Below are positions 45,861 to 50,010 of a stretch of DNA of 64,000 bases, piece by piece (the first letter of the stretch is position 1; the number at the start of each line of letters is the position of its first letter). Where the stretch lies: positions 1,612,001 to 1,676,000 of the forward strand of contig NC_005125.1 in assembly GCF_000011385.1 (NCBI RefSeq). The letters run 5' to 3'. The translations under genes and the position numbers were made by a program. Source of the DNA: Gloeobacter violaceus PCC 7421 (lineage in GTDB: Bacteria > Cyanobacteriota > Cyanobacteriia > Gloeobacterales > Gloeobacteraceae). Under the pieces are notes generated by a model that ran no database searches, was not told the DNA's origin, and saw nothing but the letters and a program-made list of their open reading frames with translations.

Positions 45861-47099
45861 TCAGTTGCGGCCGTTGGGCTGCTGCATCGACATCGGCGTT
45901 GTCCCGTTCGGAAGCATTTGCCACGGCTGGCCGTACTCCAGAAAGGCCAGCTCGACGCCGCGCTCGCGCAGCTCGGCGTCGATTTTGTAGTAGAGGGCGC
46001 TTTTGATGCGCAGTTGCTCCTTAGGAGTACCGCACCAGGCCCACAGCTCAAAGAGCATCCCCAACTCGCGCCATCCCCGGAAGATCACTTCCGGAACAGG
46101 ATTGGTGAGCACGCGCCGCTCCTCGGAGGCAATTTTAAGCAGCGTCTCCGTCACCACCTCCGGATCGCCGCTGCCGCGTACCAGTACTTCGAGGGACAGG
46201 CGAGCCCGGTTCTCGGCGGTGGACCAGTTGAGCACCTGCTGATCGACCAGCAGGGTATTGGGAACGATCAGCCGCGAGCCGTCGAAGCGGCGCAAGGTGG
46301 CGGCGCGCAGGTTGACGCTTTCGACGACGCCGTCTTTGTTGTCGATGACGATGTAGTCGCCCACCTGCACGGGCCGCTCAATCAGCAACACCAGTCCGCT
46401 GATGAAGTTGCGCGCCAGGTTCTGCAGGGCGAAGCCCACACCCAGGCCGATCACCCCCAGCAAAATGGCGATCGAGCCGAGATCGATACCTGCCAGCTGC
46501 AACAGCAAAATGTAGCCGACGGCGCTGATCACGTAGTTGCAGACGGTGGCGATCGCCTCCTGGCTGCCGATGGTCAGGTTGAAGCGGCTGAGCACGAAGC
46601 GCTTGAGCACCACCGCCGAGAGGCGCGAGGCCCAGAAGACGGCAAAAGCGAGCACCAACAGCAACAGCAGCGTACCCAGGGGAAAGCGCGTCTTGTCGAT
46701 GGTGAGCACCGGCACCTGCCACACCCCGACCAAAAAATCGGCCACCCCCCCCAGCAGCAATGCCACCTGGGAGCGCAATGGATCAAGACCTTTGAGGTTT
46801 CCGGCGGCCAGCCAGAGGGCCGCAAACCACACTCCCCCCTGCAGCAGGCCAAACAGGCTCCTCAACCACGGGTCGAAGCGCTGGTCGCCGATAAAAAACT
46901 TCAAGCGGCCGCGAACAATATTCAGTCCCCAACTGCCCAGCGCTCCCAGGACCACCGAAGCGACGGCCATCAACCACTGCAGCGCTTCGAGGGGCACGGT
47001 GATGAGCGGCATCTCGCTCTGCGCCCCGGCCGGTAAGGCGAGCGCCCCCCAGAGCCCCGCCGCCTGCGCTAAAAGAGAATAGCAATGCCGCCTGCGCAT
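45861..47099 (-). CDS. MscS-type small-conductance mechanosensitive channel
   Basis: A 412-residue membrane protein. After a possible signal peptide (residues 1-27), several hydrophobic helices lead to the pore-lining TM3: AILLGVIGLGVGFALQNLAR, with the Gly/Ala pattern of MscS (about residues 219-238). Then comes the beta-domain motif RPVQVGDYIVIDNKDGVVESV and the C-terminal alpha/beta domain. It probably protects against hypo-osmotic shock. Start ATG at 47099 chosen; the frame stays open to 48137 but overlaps the divergent DEP gene and is a codon-bias shadow. It diverges from the DEP-CpcT operon across 57 bp, so both may share a control region. Confidence 0.9.
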   Translation of the reverse strand: MRRRHCYSLLAQAAGLWGALALPAGAQSEMPLITVPLEALQWLMAVASVVLGALGSWGLNIVRGRLKFFIGDQRFDPWLRSLFGLLQGGVWFAALWLAAGNLKGLDPLRSQVALLLGGVADFLVGVWQVPVLTIDKTRFPLGTLLLLLVLAFAVFWASRLSAVVLKRFVLSRFNLTIGSQEAIATVCNYVISAVGYILLLQLAGIDLGSIAILLGVIGLGVGFALQNLARNFISGLVLLIERPVQVGDYIVIDNKDGVVESVNLRAATLRRFDGSRLIVPNTLLVDQQVLNWSTAENRARLSLEVLVRGSGDPEVVTETLLKIASEERRVLTNPVPEVIFRGWRELGMLFELWAWCGTPKEQLRIKSALYYKIDAELRERGVELAFLEYGQPWQMLPNGTTPMSMQQPNGRN

Positions 47100-47156
47100 G
47101 TCCCAAGTGTAGAGCACGTTCCCGGGACGCCTGCGGCGGTTCTTCCGGAGGCTCGT

Positions 47157-48155
47157 GTGATCGTTCAACGCAAAGGGGATCCCGCCGAACGCATCCGGGC
47201 CGTCGGCCTCGACCCGCAGCAACTCGTCGAGGATGCTTATACCCGCCTCGAGATTCGCGAGCGCTGGTATTTTTTTGTGCGCTTCCCGCGCTGCTTTGTA
47301 GGCAGCGAGGCGGTGCTGTGGCTGACACGCCACTACAGCATCCCCAAAGAGATCGCCGTCATGCTGGGCAACGACCTTATCGAGATGTCGGTGTTCCACC
47401 ACGTGCTCGACAACTGGGATTTTCGCGACGACTATCTGTTCTACCGCTTCTACCGCGACGAGAAAAACAGCGTCGGCGCCCCCTATACCCGCGAGCAGGC
47501 CCTCGCGGTCTTGATGCAGCTGAAGGTGCCGCAACTCGACTCGCTGGTGGTGCAGTTCTACCAGGCAGTCACCATCCAGGATCACAGAGTCGGGTTGCGC
47601 CTGTTTCGCCGCTGCTTTGTGGGCAAAGACGCCGCCTGCTGGTTTCGGCGGCGCTTCAATTTCGAACGATCCCAGGCCATCGCCCTCGGTAACGCGCTCA
47701 TCTCGCTCAGGGTTTTCCACCACGTCCTGGATAGCGCCAACTTTGAAGACGGCGAGGTGTTCTATCGTTTCTACGACGACGAATACAGCACCGACGTGCT
47801 CACCCCCCAGCAGGTCTACCGCCGGGCCTGGCAGACCATCCAGAGTTACGGCATCGCCGATATCGACACGTTTATCGCCCAGTGCAAGCGCGCCCCCAGT
47901 CTCGGGCTCAAAGAGCGCGTCTACGGCTCTGTGTATTATCCGGAGTGCTTTGCCGGTTTCGACGCGGTGAGCCTCTGGTCGGACCTGCTGCAGATCACCC
48001 GCCCCGAGGCGGTGGCCCTCGGCAACTACCTGCTCGACCTGGGACGGCTCTACCACGTCGAGGGCCGCTGGGGGTTTCAAGACGCCTACTTGCTCTACCG
48101 CTTTACCAGCCCCGAGCAGATCGACCGGGTGGCCCAACCGGCGGAGGACATGTAA
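47157..48155 (+). CDS. protein with three DEP domains
   Basis: A 332-residue soluble protein made almost only of three DEP-like domains (about residues 35-125, 135-225 and 255-325). Each shows a CF-G-x-x-A segment, an ALGN-type helix and the HV-x-x-x-FxD-x-x-FYRF ending: RCFVGSEAVLWL and HHVLDNWDFRDDYLFYRF; RCFVGKDAACWF and HHVLDSANFEDGEVFYRF; ECFAGFDAVSLW and YHVEGRWGFQDAYLLYRF. DEP domains mainly occur in eukaryotic G-protein signalling and bind membranes or receptors. The GTG at 47157 has GGAGG 5 bases upstream. The stop overlaps the next start (TAATG), coupling it to a CpcT-type bilin lyase. Confidence 0.8.
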   Translation: MIVQRKGDPAERIRAVGLDPQQLVEDAYTRLEIRERWYFFVRFPRCFVGSEAVLWLTRHYSIPKEIAVMLGNDLIEMSVFHHVLDNWDFRDDYLFYRFYRDEKNSVGAPYTREQALAVLMQLKVPQLDSLVVQFYQAVTIQDHRVGLRLFRRCFVGKDAACWFRRRFNFERSQAIALGNALISLRVFHHVLDSANFEDGEVFYRFYDDEYSTDVLTPQQVYRRAWQTIQSYGIADIDTFIAQCKRAPSLGLKERVYGSVYYPECFAGFDAVSLWSDLLQITRPEAVALGNYLLDLGRLYHVEGRWGFQDAYLLYRFTSPEQIDRVAQPAEDM

Positions 48156-48706
48156 TGAGCGACTGGCAGACCGTGCGCACCTGGCTGGCGGGCACCTACT
48201 CCAACCGCGCCCAGGCGATGGCGGAGCCGGTCTGGTTCATTCCGGTCACACTCTGGTATGTGGAAGTGGCCGGGCTCTTCGGCGAAGGGGCGGGCTTTTT
48301 TACCGAGCAGGTGAGCGAGCACACCCCCAACCAGCCCTACCGCAGCCGGGTATTACAGTTGCTCGATAACCCCTTGCGGCTGGAGAATTATCGCCTCAAA
48401 GACCAGAAAGTCTGGGCCGGGGCGGCAAAGGACCCAGAGCGTCTCGGGCGGCTGAGGGCGGACGACTGCGAGCAGCTTCCCGGCTGCACGCTCTATCTGG
48501 AGCGCCGGGGGGAGACGTTCACGGGCAAGATGCAACCCGGAGGCGGCTGCCGTCTTTTTCCCGGTGACGCCAGCTATGTCGAGATCGAATTTGAACTTGG
48601 CGAGCGGTTGTTTTTCACCCTCGACCGTGGCTTCGAGGCCACTACCGGCGAGCAGACTTGGGGATCCCGGGCCGGGGCGTACCGATATTTGAAGCAGCTG
48701 CATTGA
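48155..48706 (+). CDS. cpcT: phycobiliprotein chromophore lyase, CpcT/CpeT family
   Basis: A 183-residue T-type bilin lyase, predicted to attach phycocyanobilin to a beta-subunit Cys. Family features: LAGTYSNRAQAMAEP (residues about 11-25), HTPNQPYRSRVLQLL, LENYRLKDQKVWAGA, EQLPGCTLYL and C-terminal GSRAGAYRYL. The start ATG overlaps the DEP stop by one base, so translation is coupled. There is no phycobiliprotein gene nearby. Whether the target is CpcB, PecB or another subunit cannot be told from sequence alone. Confidence 0.87.
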   Translation: MSDWQTVRTWLAGTYSNRAQAMAEPVWFIPVTLWYVEVAGLFGEGAGFFTEQVSEHTPNQPYRSRVLQLLDNPLRLENYRLKDQKVWAGAAKDPERLGRLRADDCEQLPGCTLYLERRGETFTGKMQPGGGCRLFPGDASYVEIEFELGERLFFTLDRGFEATTGEQTWGSRAGAYRYLKQLH

Positions 48707-48744
48707 TGGGGCAGGCTACAGTCCGCCACGGCCTAGGGCAACTT

Positions 48745-49485
48745 CTACCACAGCGACAAAATCGCTGATGTGTCTGTGTCCACCGGGCAATTAGCTTCGG
48801 AACACCTCCGAGCTTTTCCGCCCACAGAGCCATCCGATGCATACACCAGTTCGACCGGCCATGTGATCTCTGCCCGGCCAAAAAAATAGACAAATTTGGA
48901 GTTAACCTGATCAAACTGGCGACGATTGACGTAGAGGACAGTGCTCAAGATCCGCACTTCTTCTTCCGGATTGAGATACGTGTCATACTGGCTCCCGCCA
49001 CCACCTTTGTAGCGGCGACCAAAAGTAAAGATGACTTCTTCTTGGGTCTTGCGCAGATAGCGGATGCGGTTGACCGTGTCTGGTAGAATCTCGTTGCTTG
49101 TCGACAAAAGCTTGCTTGGCTTGGTATCCACCTGTACTCCATAGACGTTCACCGTGCTCAGCAACAGGCGCAAGGGTGCCTTGCCAACGTTGCGGATGCT
49201 CCCGCGCACTTGGACAGCGACCATGTCGCCGCGTCGGCCGACTTTCTCAAGTTCGGTGGTAGCCACCATAGCGAGCGGTTCGTTGGCCGGTTTAATCCGA
49301 TCTTCGTAGATAAACGAGTAGAAGGCCCAGACGCCGGCGGCGATGATCGCCACCACCTGTACACCTGCACTCACTGTCTCGGCTGCCCACTTCAATGAAG
49401 CAAGCCGGACCAACAGAGGTCGCTTGCTGGCTGGCGTCGGCACAGCAGCACCGACCGAAGACTCTTGCTGCCGGGAAACGTCCAC
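48745..49485 (-). CDS. hypothetical single-pass membrane protein
   Basis: A 246-residue protein of unknown function. One hydrophobic helix (about residues 38-58, SAGVQVVAIIAAGVWAFYSF) follows a short polar N-terminus. The remaining part is predicted beta-rich and extracytoplasmic, with VAVQVRGSIRNVGKAPLRLL resembling an immunoglobulin-like strand pattern. GTG start at 49485 with a GAGGGG site 5 bases upstream. It lies 61 bp downstream of an RHH regulator on the same strand, so the two may be co-transcribed. No family recognised. Confidence 0.65.
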   Translation of the reverse strand: MDVSRQQESSVGAAVPTPASKRPLLVRLASLKWAAETVSAGVQVVAIIAAGVWAFYSFIYEDRIKPANEPLAMVATTELEKVGRRGDMVAVQVRGSIRNVGKAPLRLLLSTVNVYGVQVDTKPSKLLSTSNEILPDTVNRIRYLRKTQEEVIFTFGRRYKGGGGSQYDTYLNPEEEVRILSTVLYVNRRQFDQVNSKFVYFFGRAEITWPVELVYASDGSVGGKARRCSEANCPVDTDTSAILSLW

Positions 49486-49546
49486 ATTTTCCCCTCAACC
49501 CGCCACCGACAGTGTACTTCAGGCAGTCCGGCGCATCCTGGCCCGC

Positions 49547-49846
49547 TCAATTGCTGCTATCCAACCACGCCCGTTCAATGTCCTCCAGGCGCTCGTCGCG
49601 TGCCTCCTGCAAAAGGTCGGCAGGCAACAAGCCATGCTGCTCCTGCAGTCGCTTGCGCATTCGGGTCAAAGCTTCGATAGCCTGCATTGCCTGTTGCAGA
49701 CCGACCTGCCGCCGGTTCCGCTCAAAATAATCCCGCACGATTTCGCGCATCACCTCGGAGAGTGTACGTCCCTGCTCTCGGGCAATCTCGGCCAACTGTC
49801 GGTGCTGCTCAGGTTCCAGCAAAATTTGAGCGCGGTATAAAGCCAC
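49547..49846 (-). CDS. ribbon-helix-helix protein, antitoxin-like
   Basis: A 99-residue protein whose first 45 residues fit the ribbon-helix-helix DNA-binding fold of CopG/VapB-type antitoxins: ALYRAQILLEPEQHRQLAEI, then REQGRTLSEVMREIVRDYF. A helical acidic C-terminus could bind a toxin. GTG start at 49846 with GGGAGGG upstream. No recognisable toxin is adjacent; the downstream gene codes for a membrane protein. It is probably an orphan antitoxin or simple regulator. Confidence 0.7.
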   Translation of the reverse strand: MALYRAQILLEPEQHRQLAEIAREQGRTLSEVMREIVRDYFERNRRQVGLQQAMQAIEALTRMRKRLQEQHGLLPADLLQEARDERLEDIERAWLDSSN

Positions 49847-49951
49847 ATCGCCCTCCCTACAATTACACCTACACAGATGTAATCGTAGACGCCACCAGTG
49901 AAGCCGCCTCCCAGGCGTCTACTCCTCAAGACAGGTTGTGCACACAGACCA

Positions 49952-49980
49952 TTGACCCTGCCGCCTGGATCGTTTACAAA
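49952..49980 (+). promoter_or_regulatory. promoter of the TetR-type gene
   Basis: TTGACC (49952-49957) and TACAAA (49975-49980) are separated by 17 bases. The predicted transcript start falls inside the palindrome that follows, and the leader would be only about 24 nt. Confidence 0.5.
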
Positions 49981-49981
49981 T

Positions 49982-50003
49982 AATAAGTAAGCACTCACTT
50001 ATT
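49982..50003. promoter_or_regulatory. palindromic operator before the TetR-type gene
   Basis: AATAAGTAAG-CA-CTCACTTATT: two 10-base half-sites with one mismatch, ending 8 bases before the ATG. Position over the predicted start of transcription and similarity to TetR-family operators suggest autorepression. Confidence 0.6.
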
Positions 50004-50010
50004 TATTCCC

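Follow-up and report, generated by a model that had tools for sequence, protein, structure and literature searches.

The window analysed here, a stretch of 64,000 nucleotides of the Gloeobacter violaceus PCC 7421 genome (positions 1,612,001-1,676,000), contains a gene for a protein with three DEP domains, flanked by a divergently oriented MscS-family channel gene and an overlapping gene of the CpeT/CpcT family of T-type lyases (Table 1). An earlier reading of this DNA from its letters alone (the sequence-only reading) had described a triple-DEP protein coupled to a CpcT-type bilin lyase and diverging from an MscS channel, and the last of these statements is confirmed by profile matches to PF00924 and PF21082.

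Table 1 Genes and features of the MscS/DEP/lyase locus (positions within the window)
Feature	Position	Strand	Evidence or remark
MscS-family channel	45861..47099	-	PF00924 E 8e-21, PF21082 E 3e-10; divergent from DEP gene
Full ORF of triple-DEP gene	47085..48155	+	opens at ATG 47085, 356 aa
GGAGG, likely ribosome-binding site of DEP gene	47147..47151	+	5 bases before GTG 47157
Triple-DEP gene	47157..48155	+	probable GTG start, 332 aa; 3 x PF00610
DEP domain 1	47247..47450	+	PF00610, 75.4 bits
DEP domain 2	47568..47771	+	PF00610, 66.4 bits; most basic, net +4
DEP domain 3	47904..48104	+	PF00610, 61.4 bits; most diverged of the three, long branch in DEP tree
TAATG stop/start overlap	48153..48157	+	sequence; translational coupling inferred
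CpeT/CpcT-family gene, taken as Glr1538	48155..48706	+	183 aa; PF06206; own Gloeobacteraceae clade

The open reading frame of the DEP gene extends upstream to an ATG that would make it overlap the start of the MscS gene by 15 bases. The 72 bases from this ATG to the GTG (47085-47156, only 24 codons) show 42% amino-acid identity to G. kilaueensis, and their differences peak at codon positions 2 and 3, which is not a coding-like pattern. The core of the protein is 75% identical to that of G. kilaueensis, with differences of 0.18, 0.11 and 0.40 at the three codon positions. The non-coding pattern of the upstream segment and the GGAGG motif close to the GTG indicate that translation probably begins at 47157 and not at ATG 47085. 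Both the DEP gene and the lyase gene show coding constraint in their substitution patterns.

The presence of three DEP domains in one soluble protein, as the sequence-only reading had it, is real. A Pfam search placed every repeat far above the PF00610 cut-off of 32.7 bits, with all three matches spanning profile positions 2 or 3 to 72 of 72 and the whole protein matching with an E-value of 2.8e-57, and hydropathy revealed no stretch hydrophobic enough for a membrane helix. With a net charge of about -5, the protein is not basic overall. Among themselves the three domains share 29-43% identity, and each is 80-83% identical to its counterpart in G. kilaueensis, indicating that the triplication is older than the split from G. 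kilaueensis and that all three domains have been kept under constraint. An AlphaFold2 model from a 4-row alignment had a mean pLDDT of 42. The PF00610 search found no second DEP gene in the G. violaceus genome and no DEP domain at all in 14 control genomes, NCBIfam contained no model for either the DEP protein or the lyase relative, and no plasmid carrying the DEP protein was found. A scan of genome contigs with the Gloeobacter alignment gave only the 98% relative Aphanocapsa lilacina HA4352-LM1 (G389), and a literature search for glr1537, which would be the expected number of the DEP gene, yielded no paper.

A soluble bacterial protein with three DEP domains is an uncommon architecture. The closest proteins of solved structure, DEPTOR and P-Rex1 (PDB 7owg and 8tua; E 1e-13 to 1e-16), also have tandem DEP domains, but are eukaryotic regulators with further domains, whereas the Gloeobacter protein consists of three DEP domains and linkers only. 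Also comparable are the stand-alone DEP proteins of other cyanobacteria (G386, G060 and others), which are soluble and of the same DEP family, but differ in having an N-terminal region of 70-110 aa, absent from the Gloeobacter protein, followed by one DEP domain (two in Thermostichus-like genomes). This N-terminal region (L077:7991-8533, L067:8141-8641 and relatives) has no strong Pfam match and looks common to the stand-alone proteins. In the DEP tree, the three Gloeobacter domains group together and, with weak support (76/88), with the stand-alone DEP domain of G386, from which we infer that a stand-alone cyanobacterial DEP protein gave rise to the triple DEP by duplication within Gloeobacter. 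The DEP domains of G241 and its relatives, which we take from their kinship to be Thermostichus-like, form a clade of their own (99/98), indicating that their doubling was independent of the tripling in Gloeobacter.

The lyase relative matches PF06206 with 188.6 bits (cut-off 21) over profile positions 2-181 of 181, and the CpcT structure 4o4o with an E-value of 5e-35. Three CpeT homologues were reported from G. violaceus in 2008, namely Glr1182 (with apcD/cpcBA), Glr1193 (with cpeS/cpeT) and Glr1538 (183 aa, no context noted) (PMC2408579), and the gene in the window was taken as Glr1538 because it encodes 183 aa and lies outside the phycobilisome cluster. In a CpeT/CpcT-family tree of 64 rows, Glr1538 grouped with its Gloeobacteraceae orthologues (82/79) and was excluded both from the clade of Nostoc CpcT with the Glr1182-like and Glr1193-like copies (98/97) and from the clade of Glr1193-like, phycoerythrin-cluster CpeT with G000_1269 (100/100). 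We know of no lyase activity for any member of the Glr1538 clade. Since Glr1538 falls outside the CpcT and CpeT clades and inactive members of the T family exist (PMC2327270), the label CpcT-type given by the sequence-only reading is too specific, and the best reading of Glr1538 is that of an orphan T-lyase paralogue. It shares with the CpcT/CpeT lyases the PF06206 domain, an approximately equal length and most of the invariant family positions (PYR, GC, D-RG and WG), and the retention of these positions makes bilin binding plausible; it differs from them in its position outside both clades and outside the phycobilisome gene cluster. A fourth CpeT-family paralogue of G. violaceus, with an apparent signal peptide, is encoded at 468,778 (468,778-469,308; L069:6476-7321). 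Signal-peptide proteins of this kind (also L067:12613-13251) sit on a very long branch and possibly have a non-lyase role.

The stop codon of the DEP gene (TAA, 48153-48155) and the start codon of the lyase gene (ATG, 48155-48157) have one base in common, so that the overlap noticed earlier is genuine. Bacterial genes often overlap in this way, which counts against reading a special link into it. The junction is TAATG (1-base overlap) in G. violaceus and G389 and GTGA (4-base overlap) in G390 and in G388, presumably G. kilaueensis; persistence of the overlap with altered letters favours selection for coupling. The overlap further suggests that the DEP protein and Glr1538 are translated together. 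The trio of MscS, DEP and lyase genes is kept, with the MscS gene divergent, in all four Gloeobacter genomes at protein identities down to 73%, and nothing is inserted between the DEP and lyase genes, whereas insertions occur directly downstream of the lyase. Two parts of the surroundings vary between these genomes, the DNA directly downstream of the lyase gene and the flank upstream of MscS; in the place of positions 48707-50010 of the window, G. violaceus, G390 and G388 each have ORFs of their own, marking an insertion-prone site. It was considered whether the trio had survived a complete rearrangement of its flanks, and this was rejected, as tblastn showed that G. kilaueensis retains the downstream TetR and Clp genes in synteny too, so that only the upstream side and the insert differ. 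The trio is therefore part of a conserved stretch, making its conservation weaker evidence.

Outside the genus, the pairing of DEP and CpeT-family genes breaks down. In the other genera of Gloeobacteraceae sampled (G391 and G392), lyase orthologues (258 and 240 bits) lie beside unrelated genes, and a search with the DEP protein gave no match in either genome. DEP domains occur in 23 of the 386 cyanobacterial genomes sampled, and CpeT-family genes are present in all 22 DEP-bearing genomes outside Gloeobacter. In these 22 genomes, DEP and CpeT-family genes come within 2 kb of each other once, where 0.05 such pairs would be expected (P about 0.05, and about 0.12 for a limit of 5 kb). The one pair within 2 kb is that of the Thermostichus-like G241, with its relatives G397 and G398 arranged likewise, and in all three the DEP and CpeT genes are convergent with ruvA between them. 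This proximity is near chance and was rejected as support, given the convergent order, the intervening ruvA and the presence of CpeT-ruvA without DEP in G085. In Thermostichus-like genomes (L095:7855-9011, L152:6671-7862) a divergent CpeT relative overlaps ruvA with or without a double-DEP gene. G386, in which a CpeT gene lies 4 kb from DEP, was also rejected as support, that CpeT belonging to the long-branch paralogue group with apparent signal peptides. Where second copies of CpeT in other cyanobacteria were inspected, neither DEP nor MscS genes occurred within about 7 kb of them. The expectation of DEP-cpcT adjacency in other cyanobacteria is thus not borne out, as the pair is confined to Gloeobacter and the sister genera keep the lyase without DEP. 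The sequence-only reading had made conservation beyond this one genome a test of the link, and here the outcome is divided, with the pair kept across four Gloeobacter genomes and not conserved beyond the genus.

Judged from gene fusions, the best-attested partner of DEP domains in cyanobacteria is instead MscS, a connection that the sequence-only reading had overlooked. DEP forms the C-terminus of an MscS channel in 12 of the approximately 29 DEP genes of the 22 other cyanobacteria, and a further copy in G399 brings these fusion proteins to 13 (L076, L078, L082, L083, L087, L088, L092, L093, L097, L098, L099, L101 and L155, from many cyanobacterial families). The channel parts of the fusions form a single clade (97/99) that also includes an unfused channel of G241. 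This fusion clade suggests that DEP domains regulate mechanosensitive channels in bacteria; the literature searched contained no paper on DEP-fused MscS channels. The Gloeobacter locus resembles the fusions in bringing DEP and MscS together, but as divergent neighbours, with the DEP protein unfused and the channel grouping with unfused MscS proteins and not in the fused clade. The Gloeobacter DEP domains also do not group with the MscS-fused ones in the weakly resolved DEP tree. The possibility that the Gloeobacter trio is a split MscS-DEP fusion was accordingly rejected, as neither its MscS nor its DEP domains group with the fused forms.

The pair is real but restricted to the genus, and a joint function of the DEP protein and Glr1538, as read from the sequences, is a tentative proposal. 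The suggestion that the overlap signals joint function holds in so far as coupling is kept genus-wide with changed junctions, and is weakened by the absence of the pair outside Gloeobacter. In Gloeobacter, which has no thylakoids, the phycobilisomes sit on the cytoplasmic membrane; in eukaryotes, DEP domains dock to membrane lipid or protein. The coupling, combined with what DEP domains do in eukaryotes, leads us to favour, tentatively, a reading in which the DEP protein is an adaptor that docks to the membrane or to a membrane protein and also to the co-translated Glr1538, which would then work at the cytoplasmic membrane. The three DEP domains joined by linkers would form a soluble cytosolic adaptor, produced through translational coupling in near-equal dose with Glr1538. 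By analogy with eukaryotic DEP domains it would bind a membrane or membrane-protein surface, and the coupling suggests that it may also bind Glr1538. Glr1538, in a bilin-binding or chaperone-like role, would thereby be held at the cytoplasmic membrane near the phycobilisomes. It is also plausible that the divergent MscS gene is controlled jointly with the pair. The lack of a basic charge on the DEP protein as a whole speaks against the adaptor reading, as do the lyase orthologues of the sister genera that have no DEP neighbour. A more far-reaching version, in which a DEP scaffold docks the bilin-lyase relative, perhaps senses the state of the membrane via MscS, and so brings the attachment or repair of pigments to the cytoplasmic membrane, is distinctly doubtful. 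If a DEP scaffold does dock a lyase relative, this would be a use of DEP docking in bacteria that has not been described before, and a membrane-docking partner for a T-type lyase relative would be a concrete answer to the question of lyases and pigments flagged in 2008 (PMC2327270).

Other explanations fit part of the same evidence. The genes may simply be neighbours that share a promoter region or an overlap without joint function, the DEP protein acting in unrelated signalling and Glr1538 being an orphan paralogue. This agrees with the lack of DEP-CpeT conservation beyond Gloeobacter, including the single close pair among 22 genomes, and with the retained TetR and Clp synteny, but sits poorly with an overlap maintained by differing junction sequences and with the absence of inserts between two genes that have insertions just downstream, and we regard it as somewhat unlikely. 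It is unlikely, too, that the DEP protein regulates the divergent MscS from the cytosol, as a detached counterpart of the DEP domains in the fusions, with the lyase relative an operon bystander. The number and single clade of the MscS-DEP fusions and the invariable divergent arrangement in Gloeobacter point that way, but both the channel and (with weak resolution) the DEP domains stand apart from the fused forms, and divergent neighbours need not interact.

In a further explanation, Glr1538 would be an active lyase that attaches bilin to phycoerythrin or phycocyanin, assisted by the DEP protein as a chaperone-like helper that does no membrane docking. We consider this very improbable, as Gloeobacter already has Glr1182 and Glr1193, encoded in the phycobilisome cluster, to represent the canonical clades, the T family includes inactive members, and CpeZ, the precedent for such a helper, is not known to be a DEP protein. 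In its favour are the PF06206 membership and CpcT structure match of Glr1538, the improvement of CpeT activity by CpeZ (PMC10254012), and the description in a 2008 review of the relation of Gloeobacter's many S- and T-type lyase genes to its biliproteins as open (PMC2327270).

Further DEP architectures were encountered among the cyanobacteria sampled. Thermostichus-like genomes encode Ser/Thr kinases in which the kinase domain is followed by DEP (L079, L085, L153 and L156 in the domain scan), and L157 groups with these kinase-DEP proteins in the DEP tree. In G131, DEP is fused to a SnoaL domain, and the gene is followed at a distance of 1.3 kb by a same-strand gene for an unfused MscS (L081:8157-11744).
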